From: a virus
Strand: one strand, 5' to 3'
IMG/VR virus record: IMGVR_UViG_3300031975_000657
Location: 1 to 23,371 of that record
DNA length: 23,371 nucleotides
In this document: one piece after another, positions 171 to 18,371 of the stretch
Position numbering within the stretch: position 1 is the stretch's first letter
Layout: every line of letters begins with the position of its first letter
Notes under the pieces: model-generated
What the model saw: only the letters and a program-made list of their open reading frames with translations
Database searches by the model: none
Told to the model about the DNA's origin: nothing
Translations under genes and position numbers: made by a program

Positions 171-641
171 ATGAACCCTAAAAGAAAAGAAATGCCTTGG
201 TATACCAAGTCTTTAATATCTCTACTAGGAAAAGGTCAGAGGGTTGAAGGCAGTGTATATTCACATAGCCCAGAATCTGTAAATATAATTTACAATATGT
301 TTTCAGACGAACTTGGATTTGAACCTTCTATGGTTAACAGATTAAACATACTTACTAGAGCTTTACCTAAAGAAATAGCTTCTTATGTTAAAACTGGAGA
401 CGTAAGTAAGGGATTGCAAGACGTAAGAAATCCTTTGTTGGATATATATCTAAACAAAGACAGTCAATCTCAATCTGATTTTTTGAGAGCCATATTAAAG
501 TACGATGAAGACAATAATCTTTATACCGACAAGGGTAGAAAATTTGTACAAAAAGTTACAGAATCAGGATTATTAAACGAGGAAACTATTAGAGATTTAT
601 ACTTTAAAAAATATAAAGATAAATATCCTCTTAAGGATTAG
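171..641 (+). CDS. Hypothetical protein, 156 aa
   Basis: A complete frame starts immediately after the preceding stop and ends three bases before the next small gene, so it sits in a tightly coupled rightward set. The protein is soluble-looking, basic at the N-terminus (KRKEMPWYTKS), and mixed helical afterwards; I see no signal peptide, membrane segment, cysteine motif or known catalytic signature. Codon use (AGA, TTA, ATA rich) matches the neighbouring genes, which supports it being coding. I do not recognise the family. From its position with other small genes at the end of a rightward block it could be a late accessory or virion-associated protein, but that is only inference. Confidence 0.7.
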   Translation: MNPKRKEMPWYTKSLISLLGKGQRVEGSVYSHSPESVNIIYNMFSDELGFEPSMVNRLNILTRALPKEIASYVKTGDVSKGLQDVRNPLLDIYLNKDSQSQSDFLRAILKYDEDNNLYTDKGRKFVQKVTESGLLNEETIRDLYFKKYKDKYPLKD

Positions 642-644
642 ATA

Positions 645-758
645 ATGCCTAATAAAAAAGCCAAAGAAAGAAAGCGTAGAAAAAGAAAACTTACGATTGA
701 AAATAAATCTATTAAGAGATTAATAAAAAAGAAAAAGAAAGAACAAAGAGATGGATAA
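645..758 (+). CDS. Very short Lys/Arg-rich protein, 37 aa
   Basis: An ATG at 645 opens a 37-codon frame ending at TAA 756-758 and overlapping the next gene by 8 bases. The product starts MPNKKAKERKRRKRK and ends KKKKKEQRDG; about half of its residues are Lys or Arg, so it is strongly cationic and likely to bind nucleic acid or acidic protein surfaces. Small PNKKAKxRKR-type proteins recur in environmental phages in my recollection, which supports it being a real gene. It fills the gap between two coding frames exactly, with the start just after the upstream stop and the stop inside the downstream start region. No specific role can be assigned. Confidence 0.6.
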   Translation: MPNKKAKERKRRKRKLTIENKSIKRLIKKKKKEQRDG

Positions 759-1254
759 TAAACAATTATTTGCACTAATAGACTCTCTGACAAAAGGTCA
801 AGGAGAAATGTCTAAAACTCCTATGGGTAGAGAGGTGCTTTATGTTACAAGTCCTAGTATGAATAAGACAGGAACAAGTGCTCCAGAAGGAGTTGATATA
901 CAAGAGTTAATTAGAGGTATGATTAGAAGCAATTCTCCTATAAAAAGTCAGTTTTCTAGTATGCTGGGAAGAAATCAATTAACAAATAAACCAGAAGCTG
1001 CTAAGTCAATAGATGATATTTTGAGACAGTCTGATATATCAGAGTTTTTATCAAAAGTTGTTTCTGACAAAACAAATGTGGATGTAAACGAAGATACTCA
1101 GGTTATTCCAAGCAATGTAGGTAGAATGAATAGAGAAACCTTGCAAGAAATATTAAAAATGCAAGAGCCAGTACCTCAAGGGCCTGAAATGAATATAGAA
1201 ACTTTAATGAGATTACTTTCTCCACAAATGCAGGAGCCTATTCCTCCTAGATAA
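751..1254 (+). CDS. Hypothetical protein, 167 aa
   Basis: The ATG lies inside the end of the 37-aa gene, giving an 8-base overlap, and the frame runs to TAA at 1252-1254. It is the last rightward gene before the convergent hairpin. The protein is polar, low in aromatic residues, and its C-terminal third repeats short Met/Gln/Glu/Pro patterns (LQEILKMQEPVPQ, LMRLLSPQMQEPIPPR), suggesting a flexible tail with short repeated helices. There is no membrane segment or recognisable catalytic motif. It is probably a phage-specific late or virion-associated protein judged only by operon position; I do not recognise it. Confidence 0.65.
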   Translation: MDNKQLFALIDSLTKGQGEMSKTPMGREVLYVTSPSMNKTGTSAPEGVDIQELIRGMIRSNSPIKSQFSSMLGRNQLTNKPEAAKSIDDILRQSDISEFLSKVVSDKTNVDVNEDTQVIPSNVGRMNRETLQEILKMQEPVPQGPEMNIETLMRLLSPQMQEPIPPR

Positions 1255-1258
1255 AATT

Positions 1259-1293
1259 TAGGGGTGCAGAAAATAGATAAAACTACACCCCTA
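1259..1293. terminator. Hairpin between converging transcription units, candidate bidirectional terminator
   Basis: TAGGGGTG (1259-1266) pairs perfectly with CACCCCTA (1286-1293), an 8-bp GC-containing stem with a 19-base loop. It lies 4 bases after the last rightward gene and 15 bases beyond the stop of the leftward bS21 gene. A T-rich stretch (1307-1318) follows on the plus strand at a distance, and four T residues follow directly on the minus strand. The loop is long for an intrinsic terminator, so termination is inferred mostly from position. Confidence 0.5.
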
Positions 1294-1308
1294 GGAGCAC
1301 AATAAATT

Positions 1309-1485
1309 TTATTTTTTTCTATCTCTTTTAATCTTTTTCTCTCTCTCCCTCCTAAGCTGGGAGGGCTTAGTGTAAAACCTTCGCTCTTCCAGCTCTAGTA
1401 ATATACTATTCTCTCTAACTTTCTTTTTAAATTCAGAAAGCATCTTAGATAAAGGTTTATTTTTTGTCTTTCTTACTAATATCAT
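1309..1485 (-). CDS. rpsU: Phage-encoded 30S ribosomal protein bS21
   Basis: The 58-residue frame begins MILVRKTKNKPLSKMLSEFK and continues VRENSILLELEERRFYTKPSQLRRERE before a Lys/Arg-rich tail. This is the bS21 pattern: an N-terminal beta-like VRxxE/NxP start, a helix with FKKKVRENxILxE, the RRxFYxKPSxxRRRxR signature, and a basic C-terminus. Cellular bS21 is usually about 57-71 residues, so the length is right. bS21 sits near the 30S platform by the anti-Shine-Dalgarno region and helps initiation. Phage-borne bS21 is known from marine and other viruses, where it is proposed to replace the host copy on ribosomes. The ATG overlaps the stop of the upstream gene (ATGA), so it is translationally coupled and is the last gene of the leftward block. 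Identification rests on sequence pattern alone. Confidence 0.88.
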   Translation of the reverse strand: MILVRKTKNKPLSKMLSEFKKKVRENSILLELEERRFYTKPSQLRREREKKIKRDRKK

Positions 1486-1763
1486 TCAGTCTCCATATGA
1501 TCAATCATATATCTTGTTCTATCGTAAGCCCCATATCCTTCATAAAATTCATCATACCAATCAAGATTGGGTCTTCGAGTTTGTTTATCCCTGCTATTAC
1601 TTGGCGAAAAATCTGTGGATAGAGTAATATACTCACTACCTTGACTATAAGGAGATGGTTTTAATCTAGGCTTACAATAAGAAAACCACCACTGAGTGTA
1701 TCTTTTCCATCTTTCATGCGCTCTTAGATAAGGATGTTTTTGTCTCATTCCCACGTAGTGCAT
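1482..1763 (-). CDS. Hypothetical aromatic-rich basic protein, 93 aa
   Basis: The frame starts within the upstream metallopeptidase gene (about 50 bases of overlap; an internal Met at residue 6 would shorten this to 35) and stops at an ATGA junction with bS21. The protein is unusually rich in Tyr, Trp, Arg and His (for example ERWKRYTQWWFSYCKPRLKP and DWYDEFYEGYGAYDRTRY). I see no membrane segment and no paired-cysteine motif. High Trp/Tyr/Arg content may suggest RNA or protein binding, and the position between a metallopeptidase and bS21 is suggestive but not diagnostic. I do not recognise the family. The neat junction with bS21 favours it being real. Confidence 0.6.
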   Translation of the reverse strand: MHYVGMRQKHPYLRAHERWKRYTQWWFSYCKPRLKPSPYSQGSEYITLSTDFSPSNSRDKQTRRPNLDWYDEFYEGYGAYDRTRYMIDHMETE

Positions 1764-2148
1764 TTAAACTCTCTTTCTCTTCTTTACTAATATCATTACT
1801 TCTCCAGTTACTATAAAACTCTTTTCTAGCCCACTTCTCTGCACTTATCTCCCACTTATTGTCATCGTGAGGGTCTCTGCCGCAATGTACAGCCATAGTA
1901 CCAGCTTGACAGTATTTTCTAACGAACTTTTTGACACCCATTCTTCTAGCATCCAGAGCGTGTTTACATTCGTGTAAAATAGTTAGCATAAAGTCTTCAG
2001 CGTCTCCCTCTTTCATCTCCATATCTCTAATAACCATTTTATCTTCTTCTGGTATATACATAGCCTTGACATCTAAATTTTTATCCATAACTATTGTAGG
2101 ATATATATCGTATGAATGTACTATTGACCTTACAACTAAACTACGCAA
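1714..2148 (-). CDS. Putative zinc metallopeptidase (HExxH)
   Basis: Residues 55-63 read LTILHECKH, a consensus HExxH zinc-binding and catalytic site preceded by the hydrophobic residues typical of minimal metallopeptidases, and EISAE at about 100-104 supplies a plausible third glutamate ligand. At 144 residues it resembles compact SprT/ImmA-like phage domains, though no exact family can be named. The start is TTG at 2148: an in-frame stop lies just upstream, and AGAAG is placed about 9 bases before the TTG; the next ATG would remove 20 residues. It overlaps the end of the DnaB gene by 8 bases. No signal peptide is visible, so it likely acts in the cytoplasm, perhaps on a host or phage regulator. 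Substrate unknown. Confidence 0.65.
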   Translation of the reverse strand: MRSLVVRSIVHSYDIYPTIVMDKNLDVKAMYIPEEDKMVIRDMEMKEGDAEDFMLTILHECKHALDARRMGVKKFVRKYCQAGTMAVHCGRDPHDDNKWEISAEKWARKEFYSNWRSNDISKEEKESLNALRGNETKTSLSKSA

Positions 2149-3481
2149 ATGTTAAATCTTCTTTCTTTCTTTTCTCGTGATCACTAGCCTCTACTATAGT
2201 GTTAAATAGTTTACAACTATCTCCAGAGTATCCCATCTCTACAGAACCAGGAGTACCATATCTATTCTTAGATACTATCAACATCATCTCGTTTGGCATC
2301 CATATCCTACCATTAGAATCTTCTTCTCCATATCTAGAAACATAAGGATAGTGCGTGAACACTACCATTTCCGCATCCTGTTCTAACGAACCAGACTCCG
2401 CTAAATCCGATAACCTTGGGGTCGCATCTATCCTATGTTCTATGTTTCTATTAAGCTGCGAAACTAATATTACGCACATATCATCACCCTTTGCAAGCCA
2501 TTTATATCGCATAGTAGTTTCACGTATCTTGTGTCTTAAGTCTCTATTGTCTCTAGATGGGTATTCAATAAGACCTATGTGGTCATCTATCACTACATCT
2601 GGATTAATCTTCTTTATCTCATTGAAAGTCTCTTGCATATCTCTAACATTGTCATACATAAAAAGTTTGTCTTTGTAGTTTTTCTTTATGAAGTCCATAA
2701 CTCTGTGTATTTCTGGCATAGATTCTTTTGTTCCGTGTCTTAAGCCCTTGTAAGATAAGCTATCAGACTCCATAGCAATAAACTTCTTCATCATTTCTGT
2801 GTTAGGCATTTCCCTGTTAAACATAACTACCTTTTTACCAGAGAGAACAAGCGATCTAGCTATATTAGCAGCCACAGTTGTCTTGCCGTTAGCTGGTCTT
2901 CCAGCTATAATTGTTATCTCTCCTCTTGTCATTCCATGTATAACAGAATCTAATTTTTCTAAGCCAGTTTTTATTATACCTCTACTATTAAATATAGAGT
3001 CATTGGTGTCGTGTAAAAGTTGATTAATATCAAACTCATTGTTAGAAGGTCTAAGGTTTATAAGATTTGAAGAGTCATTGTTTAGTTTGTTTATAAGAGA
3101 ATCTAGGTCTACAGAATTATCTTCAGCAGTCTTTATTATATTGTGAGAATGATTAATCATTCTTCTTCGTAGCCAATGCTCGTGTATTAACTTAGCATAG
3201 TTCTCTGCTTGTGCATAGCTAGGTTCTTTTGTAGCTATCCCACTTATATCATAAGCAATACTTTTATTGCTATGTTTTTTAGATGGAAAATTGTGGACTA
3301 TAGAGACAGCATCTATTGTCTCTCCATTCTTGTGCATTTTCTTTATAGTTCTCCATAGGTCTTTATTAAAACTATTATAAAATACATCGTCATCTTCAAT
3401 CCATTTAGATACTTTTACTATACTACTTGGCTTGTTTATCAGACAACATAACAGAGATTCTTCTGTTTGTGTATTGTGCAT
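2141..3481 (-). CDS. dnaB: DnaB-family replicative DNA helicase
   Basis: This 446-residue protein unwinds DNA at the phage replication fork as a hexameric ATPase. An N-terminal helical DnaB-N-like region (residues 1-105, starting TEESLLCCLI) is followed by a linker and a RecA-like domain. Visible motifs are Walker A GRPANGKT (194-201), the FNREMP segment with the expected glutamate (about 224), Walker B VVIDDH (296-301), the SQLNR motif (341-345), the LAESGSLEQDA loop (about 360-370) and the C-terminal KNRYGTPG arginine-finger segment (405-412). Length is close to bacterial DnaB (about 470). It starts at ATG 3481, close behind the zinc-ribbon gene and ahead of the metallopeptidase. No primase domain is fused, and none is seen elsewhere in the window, so host primase or an unseen phage primase is needed. 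Confidence 0.93.
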   Translation of the reverse strand: MHNTQTEESLLCCLINKPSSIVKVSKWIEDDDVFYNSFNKDLWRTIKKMHKNGETIDAVSIVHNFPSKKHSNKSIAYDISGIATKEPSYAQAENYAKLIHEHWLRRRMINHSHNIIKTAEDNSVDLDSLINKLNNDSSNLINLRPSNNEFDINQLLHDTNDSIFNSRGIIKTGLEKLDSVIHGMTRGEITIIAGRPANGKTTVAANIARSLVLSGKKVVMFNREMPNTEMMKKFIAMESDSLSYKGLRHGTKESMPEIHRVMDFIKKNYKDKLFMYDNVRDMQETFNEIKKINPDVVIDDHIGLIEYPSRDNRDLRHKIRETTMRYKWLAKGDDMCVILVSQLNRNIEHRIDATPRLSDLAESGSLEQDAEMVVFTHYPYVSRYGEEDSNGRIWMPNEMMLIVSKNRYGTPGSVEMGYSGDSCKLFNTIVEASDHEKRKKEDLTFA

Positions 3482-9001: not shown

Positions 9002-10297
9002 CTATACATTACTTCTTACGTAGCCCATAGCCTCATAATCCTCCTTCTTATTATAATCATAGAACTTAGCGATTCTTTTTAAGATATACTTCTGAGTATC
9101 TTCTTCTATATTTAGCAGCACAAAGAACTCTGAAAGAGTTAGGTCTCTGTTATGTATTATCCTATCTAGCTCTACATTATTAAAGTGGTCTAGGTTTACA
9201 GTTATATCTCTAGCCCTATCTACTATCGCAGTACATATTCTTATCCAATGCAAGAGTTTCTCTTTGTTAAGAGTGCCAGAATGGTATCTAAACTCTATAG
9301 AGCCGTGTAGTATTCTAGCGTGCATATTCATATTGCAATACCTAGAGTCATTGTACTTTTCCATAGAGGGGTCTACTCCCCAAGAGCTATACCAAGTATC
9401 TATAAAGTCTTGGTTAGATTCTATTCTATGTATACTAGCCCTAGATAATGGTATTTTTCTACACCATCTACTGTTCTCTCTTGAAGTTGGTAGCATCTTG
9501 TACAGAATGTTCTGAACAGACTTACCTAGAAAAAGTAGACTCCTAAGGTGTTGCCACTCTAAGTCTCTACCATCTACGTGTACGTGAACTCCACAGCTTC
9601 TATTAACTGCAAAATTAGTAGAGGTATAATCTGTTATATATTCTACGTCTTTCCATAGAGCATCTCCATTCTTAGGAACTCTAGATACAAACTCTACTGC
9701 TCTAGAACCCTCTCCGTGAGCCTCTATGCTGCCGTCGTGTACTGCTCTCCAGTTACCATCTACCTCAGTATCTCCATCCCAGTAGTTCCATCCATCAGAA
9801 TAGCACTCTAACTCTAGACCAACTAGTCTCTTTGATTTGATCGTCTTGAAAGTCTCTGAGCTAGAGTCCATCTCTCTTGTATGATAGCTATCTAAGTCTA
9901 CGTCTTCTCCGTCTCCAGGATAACATTCTTCGCAGTATGTATACCCAGTTCCTTCGTGATACATAGAGTAATCGTTGTGAGTCTCTGAATCACACTCTTC
10001 ACAACGCGAGAAAGTATCGTAGTAACAATCTCTACAGTAAGGGTCTCCATTCTCGCACCATGTAACGTCATCGCTATCCTCTGAATGGTGTTTATGACAA
10101 TTTTCACAAGCATAGACATTCTCCATACACTCTTCGCATACGTTCTCTTGAGCACTTCCATCTATATCTATGTCTGCTTCGTAGGCTGTACCTTCGTGTA
10201 CTTCATCGCACATATCGCATACGTAAGACTCTTCATTCTCTACAACTGGACTATCCTCACTAAGAGGCTCTAGCGAATTATCTCTATCAATAGGCAT
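9002..10297 (-). CDS. Amidoligase-family enzyme with N-terminal zinc-ribbon array
   Basis: Residues 25-125 contain CxxC pairs at about 27/30, 54/57, 64/67, 88/91, 99/102 and 122/125, plus Cys81, with acidic linkers: a string of small zinc ribbons. The C-terminal domain carries the Amidoligase_2 series: GLELE (160-164), HDGSIE (187-192) with EFVS (202-205), GVHVHVD (236-242) and HGSIEFRYHSGT (331-342). The family adopts a glutamine-synthetase/GCS-like ATP-dependent carboxylate-amine ligase fold and is predicted to form amide bonds on peptides or small molecules. A class-II amidotransferase two genes upstream could supply ammonia from glutamine. SD GAGGAGG precedes ATG 10297. The target is unknown; cell-wall peptide or protein tagging are options. 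The zinc array fused to the ligase is the unusual part. Confidence 0.85.
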   Translation of the reverse strand: MPIDRDNSLEPLSEDSPVVENEESYVCDMCDEVHEGTAYEADIDIDGSAQENVCEECMENVYACENCHKHHSEDSDDVTWCENGDPYCRDCYYDTFSRCEECDSETHNDYSMYHEGTGYTYCEECYPGDGEDVDLDSYHTREMDSSSETFKTIKSKRLVGLELECYSDGWNYWDGDTEVDGNWRAVHDGSIEAHGEGSRAVEFVSRVPKNGDALWKDVEYITDYTSTNFAVNRSCGVHVHVDGRDLEWQHLRSLLFLGKSVQNILYKMLPTSRENSRWCRKIPLSRASIHRIESNQDFIDTWYSSWGVDPSMEKYNDSRYCNMNMHARILHGSIEFRYHSGTLNKEKLLHWIRICTAIVDRARDITVNLDHFNNVELDRIIHNRDLTLSEFFVLLNIEEDTQKYILKRIAKFYDYNKKEDYEAMGYVRSNV

Positions 10298-10306
10298 ATA
10301 TCCTCC

Positions 10307-10630
10307 TCACGCTATTGCGTAGTTTGTAGTTATTACATAGAAAGCCATATAGTTAACTTCTCTGAGCCATCCTAGAGACTTGAGAGTCTTGTATATATCT
10401 TCTGCTTTATTGCTTTTAACCTTCACTCCTTCTACATCTTCTATCTGCTTAGCAATAAACTCTAGATAAGATTCAAAACTTTCAGTATCTACGAAAGGAT
10501 TTCTCTTAGCTTTATCGTATAGCTTTCTCATTACAAACATCTTAGAGCGTACTCTAATAGGATTAGATATACCAACTACGATAGCAGACTTCTTCTTTCT
10601 AATTCCAGAAATATCTTTGCCTGGTATCAT
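10307..10630 (-). CDS. Hypothetical protein between amidotransferase and amidoligase, 107 aa
   Basis: ATG 10630 has AAAGGAG 7 bases upstream and lies inside the end of the amidotransferase gene (32-base overlap); its stop is 9 bases before the amidoligase start region, so the three are a tight unit. The protein is basic and helical in its first two thirds (KSKMFVMRKLYDKAKRNPF, SYLEFIAKQIEDV, DIYKTLKSLGW) and ends in VNYMAFYVITTNYAIA. I see no cysteine pair or catalytic motif. Its conserved-looking position suggests an accessory or carrier role in the amidation system, which is inference only. Confidence 0.7.
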   Translation of the reverse strand: MIPGKDISGIRKKKSAIVVGISNPIRVRSKMFVMRKLYDKAKRNPFVDTESFESYLEFIAKQIEDVEGVKVKSNKAEDIYKTLKSLGWLREVNYMAFYVITTNYAIA

Positions 10631-11720
10631 CTTCAGTCTCCTTTGGTTTATTATTATATGGTCTACTGTAATTATATTTATTACAATCTTCGCATATATA
10701 ATGGTTATCTAATTTAACAGAGACACCACACCAATCTCCACACCAATCACATTCTATTCCGTGGTCTAACTCTGTATCTCCTTCTTCATACTCGCAATCT
10801 ATACAAACGAACTTGTTCTCTTTATCGTACCAGATTAAGTCCCACCAGTCTGCCATAGTCTTACAAGAAGAACACTCTTCTTGACTAGCTACTTCTCTAC
10901 CTCCGATAGAGCAGCTTGGTTGGTCATAGTCTGTTACGTAGTAGTTAGGTTCAATGACATTTGTCTCATACTTCTTTTTACTCCAGTTGATTTTATCAGA
11001 CAACTTGTCTGTATCTAGAGCATACAAAGTGTCTACCTTTGTCTCATGTATAAGAACATTTGCTTCTACTGTGTAACGGCTACCCTTTACTCTTTTATTT
11101 ACAACTCCCAATAGAGACTTTTCTAGTATCTCTTTGGTTGATGCATAGAATAAAGTTCTAGCTTCTTTCCAATAGGCAAAGGCAGTAGGTCTACCATTCT
11201 CTCTGAGTAAGTTCAATATATTATTATTGTCCTTAACCCAGGATAAAGCGTAGTCTCCATACAGCTCGTCTAGACATTCTTGAAGATTGTCGTTCTCATC
11301 GAACAGAGCAAATACAGATTGAGAATCTACCTCGTAAGACTTGCTTACAGATACATCTTCGTGATTATATATTACTCCATTATGAGTGCCAACGATAGAG
11401 CCTATCCTAAAAGGATGAGCATTCTCCAGAGATATCTTGCCGTGGGTAGCATATCTAGTATGCCCCAAAACAATATTAGTCTCTGGGGTTAGCTGTTCTC
11501 TGATCGTATTCCAGTCTTTACTCTTTACTAAGTCGCTAGACTTTTTAAGAGATTTAAAGACAATAGGATTACTATCTTTTCTAAAGAACGCTAAGCCAGT
11601 AGAGTGTTCACCTCTAATCTCTGACTCTCTGGTCAGATTAGTTAGGACTCTATCTATCTTCTTCATCTGAGACTTTGTCTGTGCATTCTGCTTCTTTGCC
11701 ATTCCGTATATCGCACACAT
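10599..11720 (-). CDS. Class-II (Ntn) glutamine amidotransferase with C-terminal zinc ribbons
   Basis: The protein starts MCAIYG, placing the catalytic nucleophile Cys at position 2, exposed after Met removal. It continues with EIRGEHSTGLAF, LGHTRYATHG (85-94), GTHNGVIYN (111-119) and VDSQSVFALF (131-140), all typical of the GATase-II domain of GlmS, PurF and AsnB relatives. These hydrolyse glutamine to release ammonia for a partner synthetase. Instead of a sugar-isomerase or synthetase domain, residues 283-346 carry CxxC pairs (283/286, 306/309, 324/327, 343/346), very like the ribbons of the downstream amidoligase. Ammonia is therefore probably passed to that ligase in trans. The SD AGGAG precedes ATG 11720. 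No ASN- or SIS-domain sequence follows. Confidence 0.88.
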   Translation of the reverse strand: MCAIYGMAKKQNAQTKSQMKKIDRVLTNLTRESEIRGEHSTGLAFFRKDSNPIVFKSLKKSSDLVKSKDWNTIREQLTPETNIVLGHTRYATHGKISLENAHPFRIGSIVGTHNGVIYNHEDVSVSKSYEVDSQSVFALFDENDNLQECLDELYGDYALSWVKDNNNILNLLRENGRPTAFAYWKEARTLFYASTKEILEKSLLGVVNKRVKGSRYTVEANVLIHETKVDTLYALDTDKLSDKINWSKKKYETNVIEPNYYVTDYDQPSCSIGGREVASQEECSSCKTMADWWDLIWYDKENKFVCIDCEYEEGDTELDHGIECDWCGDWCGVSVKLDNHYICEDCNKYNYSRPYNNKPKETEDDTRQRYFWN

Positions 11721-11771: not shown

Positions 11772-12188
11772 CTATATCCAATAATACTCTAGGTTATCTG
11801 GTTCAGTCCAACCATAACTTGAATAGAACTTAAAGTCCTTTCTAAGTAGGTTGCTTCTATGAGAAGCATGTAGCTTCTCTTTACCGAGCCAGTGTGGCAT
11901 CTCTACATTTTCGGATATACCATACATTTCCATAGTATTGTTATACCCTCTAAGTATCCACTCCTCTATCATTTTATTTTTGTAGAGAAGCAGAGCCTCT
12001 TCGTAGCCTTGCCACATAGTTACAGCTGGATGATTTTTCCAGCCTTTGTACTCTCTACCAGTCTTCGTAGGTACGCCTGTTAAAGCGTTGAAGATTTGTA
12101 GAGCTTCCACTCTTTGTTTACCTAGCCTTCTGTAGTCTAGGCATTGTGCAGAGAGCGTAAAGTCTTTATATGGTAAAAATGTCTGCAT
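11772..12188 (-). CDS. Pyrimidine-dimer DNA glycosylase-family protein (MSMEG_6728/Pyr_excise type)
   Basis: The sequence follows this small family closely: QTFLPYKDFTLSAQCLDYRR at the start, then LGKQRVEALQI, GWKNHPAVTMWQGYEEAL (49-66), PHWLG and HASHRSNLLRKD (107-118), ending YGWTEPDNLEYYWI. The family is related to the phage T4 endonuclease V (DenV) domain and is annotated as pyrimidine dimer DNA glycosylase, acting on UV-damaged DNA; activity of this subgroup is less well proven. UV repair fits a phage exposed to sunlit water, though that setting is an inference. ATG 12188 follows GGAG at a spacing of about 8 bases and overlaps no gene except the end region of the next small one. Confidence 0.8.
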   Translation of the reverse strand: MQTFLPYKDFTLSAQCLDYRRLGKQRVEALQIFNALTGVPTKTGREYKGWKNHPAVTMWQGYEEALLLYKNKMIEEWILRGYNNTMEMYGISENVEMPHWLGKEKLHASHRSNLLRKDFKFYSSYGWTEPDNLEYYWI

Positions 12189-12194
12189 TAATTA

Positions 12195-12347
12195 TTATCT
12201 CCAGAACTTATCCTCTATCCAGGATACTATGTACTTTGCTAGTAGAGTAATGTTTACTACTATAAAAGATACATATATATACACATGATGTGTAAAACCG
12301 TGTGGTTCTCCACACAAACCGAGTAGATGTTTAAGAGTCTCTAACAT
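12195..12347 (-). CDS. Small single-pass membrane protein, 50 aa
   Basis: An ATG at 12347 overlaps the stop region of the upstream gene and opens a 50-codon frame ending at TAA 12195-12197. The start MLETLKHLLGLCGEPHG resembles a recurring tiny phage protein I recall with the MLxxLLxLLGLC pattern. A hydrophobic span (VYIYVSFIVVNITLLAKYIV, about residues 22-41) should cross the membrane, followed by a charged tail. It may be a holin-like, spanin-like or membrane-accessory protein, but nothing specific supports lysis. It fills an otherwise unexplained 150-base gap. Confidence 0.6.
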   Translation of the reverse strand: MLETLKHLLGLCGEPHGFTHHVYIYVSFIVVNITLLAKYIVSWIEDKFWR

Positions 12348-12748
12348 CCGCAGCTACCAGATTTACAGCTAGAATCCATTACTGCCTTATCAAACCACTG
12401 GTCTCCGACTCTTACTACTCTACCATCTTTTACATACTCTACAATGTAGCACCACTTTCTAGCTCTAGAGTTATAGCCTTTTAGCTTTACTTTACTACCA
12501 TTGAGAGTATATTCTTTCTCTACATCAAAGCATTTTATCTTTGCTAGTTGTAGTAAGTTTTCCCACTCTTTGGTAATAACTTCTCCATCTTCTGATATTA
12601 TATTTACTTTCATTTGGAAAGTAGCTTCGCTCTCTGAGTAACTACAATTACCCAGCTCTATCTTTACATTAAGCTTTTCTCCGACTGCTTTCAGAGCTTT
12701 GTTGCCTTGCTCTCTGATCGCCTTCAATGTCTCTCTATCTAGTGTCAT
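12341..12748 (-). CDS. Hypothetical protein with Cys-rich C-terminus, 135 aa
   Basis: The frame could start at ATG 12781, but ATG 12748 overlaps the stop of the upstream small gene (ATGACACTAGATAG), the usual arrangement here, so I choose 12748. The protein begins MTLDRETLKAIREQGNKAL, has alternating beta segments through residue 100 (FQMKVNIISEDG, KVKLKGYNSRARKWCYIVEY) and ends in SCKSGSCGC. The last cluster of three cysteines could bind metal or be oxidised. I recall similar LDRETLKAIRxxxxxAL starts in phage hypotheticals but no function. Confidence 0.65.
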   Translation of the reverse strand: MTLDRETLKAIREQGNKALKAVGEKLNVKIELGNCSYSESEATFQMKVNIISEDGEVITKEWENLLQLAKIKCFDVEKEYTLNGSKVKLKGYNSRARKWCYIVEYVKDGRVVRVGDQWFDKAVMDSSCKSGSCGC

Positions 12749-17992: not shown

Positions 17993-18026
17993 TTTGCTGT
18001 ATAACTATCAAAATCAAGAGGAAGCA

Positions 18027-18371
18027 ATGAAATTAGCTGTATATGGAACCCTTAGAGCTGGTTCTAAAAATACTGGTGTTGTAAAAAAATCTTCTTTGGT
18101 TTACCCAGGGCACGAAAGTTTTCCTGCGGTAATACAAAACGAAAAAGGTTCTGGAACTATAGTAGAAGTTCACGATGTGTCAGAAGAAGACTTAGTTAGA
18201 TATGATATGTATGAAGGAATAAGTTCTGGTCTATATAGAAGAGTTAAGGCTGAAGTAAGTATGGATGATGGTTCTAAAGAAAAAGCCTGGCTTTATGTAG
18301 CAGGAGACGAACTAATGCAAAGAAGTAATATGTTCAGAGTAATTCAAAGTGGGGATTGGTACAATAGATAA
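18027..18371 (+). CDS. Gamma-glutamylcyclotransferase-like (AIG2/GGCT fold) protein
   Basis: The frame is open from TTG 17994, but ATG 18027 has AAGAGGAAG 3-9 bases upstream and begins at the conserved start MKLAVYGTLRAGSKN, so I choose it (114 residues). YGTLR is the substrate-loop signature of the GGCT/AIG2 fold; RYDMYEG (about 58-64) holds the typical acid region, and KAWLYVAG forms the closing strand. The family breaks gamma-glutamyl amide links, releasing 5-oxoproline, or acts on related amines. In this phage, which also encodes an amidoligase and glutaminase, that chemistry is intriguing. It overlaps the large terminase start by 23 bases. Confidence 0.8.
   Translation: MKLAVYGTLRAGSKNTGVVKKSSLVYPGHESFPAVIQNEKGSGTIVEVHDVSEEDLVRYDMYEGISSGLYRRVKAEVSMDDGSKEKAWLYVAGDELMQRSNMFRVIQSGDWYNR

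Follow-up and report, generated by a model that had tools for sequence, protein, structure and literature searches.

A phage glutamine amidotransferase–amidoligase module with predicted zinc arms on both enzymes and a small third gene

Phages of the LUZ24, UFV-P2 and phiEco32 type carry a gene cluster encoding a COOH-NH2 ligase (COOH-NH2_lig), an Amidoligase_2 protein, a glutamine amidotransferase (GATase), a RimK-type ATP-grasp protein and a protein of the AIG2 (GGACT) family. A cluster that includes the COOH-NH2 ligase and ATP-grasp genes is annotated in the LUZ24 record and tabulated for UFV-P2 in PMC3890496. Amidoligase clusters are widespread among phages, and the literature examined gives no more than predictions of what they make: a cell-wall role has been suggested for the phiEco32 cluster, as cited in a passage of PMC10580990, and a role in nitrogen metabolism is proposed for phage ZRK32 in a passage of PMC10945688. 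Here we describe a related module in a window of 23,371 nucleotides (nt), taken from the IMG/VR virus record IMGVR_UViG_3300031975_000657, which also carries viral genes for a terminase large subunit and a portal protein. The module comprises a class-II GATase, a 107-amino-acid (aa) protein that we call mid, and an amidoligase. It is genuine and conserved, and represents a variant of the phage system of GATase, amidoligase and GGACT proteins that is already known. The initial annotation of this DNA regarded the pairing of the two enzymes as already recognised, which is correct for LUZ24/phiEco32-type phages.

Like the described clusters, the window combines Amidoligase_2 and class-II GATase proteins with a GGACT protein (PF06094; 55.1 bits against a cut-off of 22.8), a family present in 40 of 47 searched records that form part of the group. 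The GATases are also alike, in that 8 of 13 annotated phage records with both genes paired (at least one of which, MW202615, is environmental rather than from an isolate) have C-terminal CxxC ribbons on this enzyme. In contrast, the N-terminal CxxC array of the window amidoligase is absent from all 13 of their amidoligases, and none was found in those of seven further phage loci (L015–L021). The window group further differs in having the mid gene and a second amidoligase open reading frame (ORF), which is present in 48 of the 61 mid loci, is usually 450–680 aa long with its own array, and lies just before the GATase gene. Neither COOH-NH2_lig (PF14395) nor the RimK-type ATP-grasp family (PF08443) was detected in any of the 47 records, which may be fragments; both control phages were positive for each family, one of them under the cut-off for the latter. 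Our search of part of the literature found no prior description of an arrayed amidoligase with a ribboned GATase, and likewise none of a constant mid, of missing COOH-NH2_lig and RimK partners or of a doubled amidoligase.

The two enzymes and their CxxC units

The GATase begins with MCAIYG, which places a cysteine at position 2, and matches GATase_6 with 53.9 bits (E = 2.4e-14; cut-off 27). Its profile also matches GlmS and PurF chains. Residues C2, R36, R89, T92, N114, G115 and D132 are invariant in 47 aligned rows, which for this enzyme and the amidoligase alike represent the window, 44 viral loci and two Omnitrophica loci. The score above cut-off and the invariant C2 place the protein among the class-II GATases. 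Its C-terminal ribbon region contains CxxC pairs at residues 283/306 and 324/343, with spacings of 23 and 19 residues. The four cysteines of the first of these (C283, C286, C306 and C309) are kept in 47 of 47 rows and are thus as invariant as Cys2; the second is not universal.

The amidoligase matches Amidoligase_2 (PF12224) with 72.7 bits (E = 5.8e-20; cut-off 22), so that both family assignments proposed in the initial annotation lie above the Pfam cut-offs. That annotation had also made its reading depend on the GxExE and HxHxD residues. In an alignment of 13 amidoligases, two rows of which are close relatives, G160, E162 and E164 of GxExE, H238 and H240, and also E335 and R337, are invariant, whereas the aspartate of HxHxD (D242 in the window protein) is not present in all 13. 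A structure model of the enzyme, with a mean predicted local distance difference test (pLDDT) score of 86.2, is similar in its catalytic part to 1tt4, a predicted Salmonella glutathione synthase (Z = 12.7; root-mean-square deviation (r.m.s.d.) 4.9; 237 residues aligned), to YbdK (1r8g; Z = 12.4, r.m.s.d. 3.8, 228 aligned) and to plant glutamate-cysteine ligase (Z = 12.0). Weaker matches are made to glutamine synthetases (Z of around 10) and to Dop/PafA (Z = 9.6–9.8).

The amidoligase array consists of CxxC pairs at residues 27/54, 64/88 and 99/122 (spacings 27, 24 and 23 residues) and is folded in the model, mostly at pLDDT 75–93. Seven of the eight cysteines in units 2 and 3 (C64, C67, C88, C91, C99, C102 and C122) are invariant in the 47 rows. 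The family profile matches structures of LIM domains from PINCH, FHL and paxillin (best E = 3.6e-5), which likewise consist of tandem CxxC zinc units, although this match may come from the cysteine pattern. With Pfam, LIM is found in the relative at L053 (29.8 bits; cut-off 22.9), falls below the cut-off in L104 (20.5 bits) and is not matched in the window amidoligase. LIM domains are protein-interaction modules, and this resemblance speaks for the arms of the module as possible docking modules. The CxxC units of the pair are not a chance occurrence, because such units occur in six of 70 other ORFs of 300–700 aa in the surveyed loci, never more than one per ORF. As a query of the phage collection, the array alone gave no match and the GATase ribbon alone gave one weak match only (E = 7).

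The ribbons of the two enzymes are likely to be of a shared type, judged from profile comparison. GATase and amidoligase ribbon profiles match each other at 67–91% in hhalign. Five control sets were drawn from other CxxC units in the same loci, with one to six different sequences each, and four of these reach at most 52% with the profiles of either enzyme. However, the fifth reaches 59–70% with amidoligase unit 1, 74–78% with unit 3 and 85–90% with the first unit of the large amidoligase, and kinship is therefore suggested rather than shown. Residue similarity beyond composition is slight, with scores of −8.4 for amidoligase–GATase units (−10.0 when shuffled) and −15.5 for amidoligase–control units (−16.7 when shuffled).

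Distribution of the three genes

A survey seeded with the amidoligase covered 82 sequences, namely the window, 79 viral loci and two Omnitrophica loci; the viral loci were taken as the 80 top-ranking of 475 matches, a sample that leans towards the window. An arrayed amidoligase, with at least two units, occurs in 64 of the 82 sequences, and a GATase with at least one ribbon unit accompanies it in 63 of these 64, the exception (L080) being cut by a contig end. Mid is present in 61 of the 64 (it is not in L080, L104 or L105), all of them viral loci with the gene order GATase–mid–amidoligase. Among the 18 loci with an array-less amidoligase, 17 yielded no GATase and one has a GATase without a ribbon. 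The loci are not independent: clustering of the GATases gives 28 groups at 70% identity and 10 groups at 50%, and the 61 mid loci contain 54 distinct GATases.

Searches seeded with the other two proteins gave similar sets. All three genes are present in 66 of 67 mid-seeded loci, the remaining one (L290) beginning inside mid at a contig end, and in 64 of 80 GATase-seeded loci (the best 80 of 210). A further 15 of these 80 lack mid and combine an arrayed amidoligase with a GATase that has no CxxC unit, a lone CxxC remaining in three of them; the last (L323) is a fragment of 1,367 bases. Mid thus tracks the ribbon, with both in 64 loci and neither in 15. The initial annotation had suggested a survey for co-occurrence of the three genes and named the 107-aa gene as a candidate third component; by these counts it is a constant one in the viral group. 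Of the support that the annotation asked for, alignment and co-occurrence of the zinc domains, co-occurrence is borne out, and alignment to the extent given above. On a GATase tree of 63 rows, the ribbon requires five changes, the array two and mid two, and only two independent contrasts lie on well-supported branches, too few for a tree test of the association.

A sister group of 15 loci (L324, L340, L341, L345, L348, L352, L355, L356, L359, L361, L362, L363, L366, L369 and L370) has arrayed amidoligases of 452–757 aa where complete, GATases with no CxxC unit, and no mid. The C-terminal extension of these amidoligases gave no Pfam family above cut-off in the six scanned and contains no mid-like domain; nor was such a domain found in the large amidoligases over their first 190 residues.

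Outside the viral group, Amidoligase_2 occurs in 6 of 145 Omnitrophota genomes. As in the window, the amidoligase has an array (here of three to four units) and the GATase a ribbon in seven of eight Omnitrophota loci, the stretch of the eighth (L192) stopping at the amidoligase, but the gene order is reversed and mid is absent. The Omnitrophica pair at L105 (1509–3365) lies near genes that we take to encode a TraG/VirD4-like coupling protein and a RadC-like protein, and pairs of this type may therefore travel on conjugative elements.

A further type of pair occurs in Firmicutes (the family of a Flavonifractor genome) and also in the fecal record MT839723 (L184). The L184 protein was matched in 10 of 101 Firmicutes genomes, two of them by the array alone. 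Here too a triple CxxC array precedes the amidoligase domain and the GATase gene adjoins that of the arrayed amidoligase. In contrast to the window, the GATase is ribbonless, there is no mid match and the gene order is reversed. In all nine intact loci, which come from six genomes, the amidoligase is arrayed and the GATase has no CxxC pairs; the other loci have broken frames (L205, L210/L215), are fragments or lack a GATase. Among 78 further genome-contig loci (L106–L183), five have a GATase match beside an array-less amidoligase, and a single arrayed amidoligase occurs in L183, with no GATase on its 7.3-kb contig. Of the two amidoligases encoded at the L183 locus (620–3115; Syntrophomonadaceae), one bears a four-unit array and the other a single ribbon. 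Triple CxxC arrays also stand alone in L207 (1415–1765, minus strand, 116 aa) and L208 (1483–1800, minus strand, 105 aa), the former adjoining what we take to be a single-strand binding protein gene and the latter near presumably phage-like genes. Phages, Omnitrophota and Firmicutes thus all have LIM-like tandem zinc arrays attached to members of one ligase family.

Mid and the possible roles of the module

Window mid has no Pfam family above cut-off. A match to JetA (Wadjet) at E = 0.0017 lies below cut-off and is taken as chance because it is missing from the homologues in L003 and L053; other weak Pfam matches of mid relatives are also below cut-off and vary between rows. Two queries of the phage collection did not detect mid, nor did a sequence search of solved structures. 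The mid model (mean pLDDT 70.5) has three confident helices and two conserved ends with pLDDT below 50, which would suggest a protein that folds on its partners. A fold search with this model returned nothing reliable (best E = 1.2; best Z = 3.1), a result with no bearing on fold novelty. The C-terminal tail is conserved, and among 51 different sequences its end position stays within one alignment column in nearly every case, with V (27), A (17), S (3), G (2) or T (2) as the last residue.

The amidoligase array and the GATase ribbon region are both acidic, with a median isoelectric point (pI) of 4.05 each (47 rows each), and the catalytic parts of both enzymes are nearer neutral. Mid has a median pI of 9.37, with 33 of 38 rows above pI 7, and its charge is anticorrelated with that of the array (rho = −0.45, n = 32, p = 0.009). 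Because the ribbons are acidic, we put nucleic-acid binding by them low. Two acidic arms would also pair poorly with each other, whereas a basic adaptor would suit them better.

Our preferred reading, which we hold tentatively, is that of a phage amidation or gamma-glutamylation module in which the acidic zinc arms dock proteins, with mid as the likeliest adaptor because it is small, mostly basic and exclusive to the module. The family and fold matches, together with GGACT, indicate a probable chemistry in which glutamine is hydrolysed, an amide is formed at the expense of ATP and gamma-glutamyl amides are possibly reversed. Specifically, the GATase would hydrolyse glutamine, the amidoligase, with its YbdK/glutamate-cysteine ligase fold, would link a carboxylate with ammonia or some other amine in an ATP-consuming reaction, and the GGACT enzyme could reverse gamma-glutamyl amides. 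The predicted zinc arms of both enzymes would serve protein docking and not catalysis, and mid may bind them so as to hold the enzymes together or present a substrate.

Several observations weigh against this role for mid. Omnitrophota pairs carry both arms without mid, and 8 of 13 annotated phage GATases are ribboned with no mid found in that collection, so ribbons do not need mid; moreover, the ribbons of seven of these eight are near neutral or weakly acidic. Mid and the ribbon changed together in few events, and the co-occurrence is mostly that of one lineage. Five of 38 mid rows have a pI below 7, and the net charge per residue of mid is just moderately higher than that of other conserved small ORFs (median 0.05 versus 0.02). 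On dereplication, the charge correlation with the array fades (rho = −0.37, n = 16, p = 0.16), and none is left with the GATase ribbon.

The initial annotation proposed that the arrays of the two enzymes dock together or on a shared target. Direct docking of the arms on each other is quite unlikely: their joint occurrence in 63 of 64 arrayed loci and in seven Omnitrophota loci and the matching profiles would fit it, but both arms are acidic, and neither needs the other, given arrays without ribbons in the nine intact Firmicutes loci and 15 of 80 viral loci and ribbons without arrays in 8 of 13 annotated phage records. A shared target therefore fits better, and the docking idea is reasonable if recast around a third partner. 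This independent gain and loss of array and ribbon speaks for another reading, an auxiliary metabolic pathway for small-molecule nitrogen or gamma-glutamyl amines, with arms that do no more than stabilise each enzyme and mid as a separate function in the operon. The frequent GGACT gene agrees with such a pathway, as does the comparable reading of phage ZRK32 in the passage of PMC10945688. The tie between mid and the module (66 of 67 loci) and, more weakly, the invariant non-catalytic cysteines, which argue for a use beyond stability, count against this pathway reading, which we consider rather unlikely.

Mid could instead be the substrate itself, a carrier or tag of which Pup and LysW are analogues. 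The ligase would add an amine or amino acid to the C-terminal carboxylate of mid, and the GATase and GGACT enzymes would process the adduct. A conserved tail that is unconfident in the model, and a ligase fold common to Dop and PafA, are consistent with this proposal. However, Pup ends in Glu or Gln, which is not the case for any of the 51 mid sequences, the amidoligase fold is no nearer to PafA/Dop than to glutamine synthetases, and neither Omnitrophota nor the sister group has mid; we give the proposal little credence. The same low probability applies to its fuller form, in which mid is a dedicated carrier captured by acidic LIM-like arms on both enzymes and modified at its conserved tail. 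Amidation of cell-wall peptides against superinfection, the printed suggestion for phiEco32 in the passage of PMC10580990, involves the same enzyme classes. Pfam scans of the window proteins found no wall-directed domain, and the COOH-NH2_lig and RimK partners are absent from the possibly fragmentary records; this role too appears very doubtful.

In the preferred reading, a zinc-armed enzyme pair with a small protein suggests a protein assembly in an uncultured phage group. With its compact layout, a defined third protein and putative docking arms that can be recognised, the window variant turns what such clusters modify into a question for three-protein reconstitution.

Gene layout and neighbouring genes

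The CxxC ribbons at the C terminus of the Cys2 GATase and at the N terminus of the amidoligase are real, and the coordinates first annotated for the genes are exact. The tight overlaps reported between the genes apply to GATase and mid, which share 32 nt; mid and the amidoligase are separated by a gap of 9 nt. GGAG precedes the starts of mid and the amidoligase, and AGGAG that of the GATase.

Table 1 Features of the module and the GGACT gene in the window
Feature	Coordinates	Strand	Basis
GATase gene, class-II (Cys2 nucleophile), 373 aa	10599..11720	-	Pfam GATase_6, profile matches, invariant residues
GATase ribbon region, residues 283-346	10683..10874	-	CxxC pairs 283/306 and 324/343
mid, 107-aa basic protein	10307..10630	-	Locus survey and structure model
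Amidoligase_2 enzyme, 431 aa	9002..10297	-	Pfam, structure model, fold matches
Amidoligase N-terminal LIM-like array, residues 27-125, three CxxC..CxxC units	9923..10219	-	Motif scan, conservation, model
GGACT/AIG2 family gamma-glutamyl (amine) cyclotransferase	17994..18371	+	Pfam GGACT, E 1.4e-14

In the relative L003, a gene at 11780–12556 that we take to encode a PP-loop ATPase-like protein precedes a cytosine methyltransferase-like gene; the ORF list of the window has no counterpart of this ORF at that place. Immediately upstream of the window GATase is a Pyr_excise gene for a pyrimidine dimer DNA glycosylase (11772–12188, minus strand; Pfam E = 1.1e-24).

The GGACT gene, which is probably a distant member of the amidoligase pathway, overlaps the terminase large subunit ORF at its start. 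The same gene neighbourhood occurs two times in each of contigs G255 (L024; 80,282 bases) and G004 (L067; 63,940 bases). Each contig has a pair of terminase large subunit genes and a pair of GGACT genes, together with two amidoligases in G255 and four in G004, and each record probably contains two related phage genomes.

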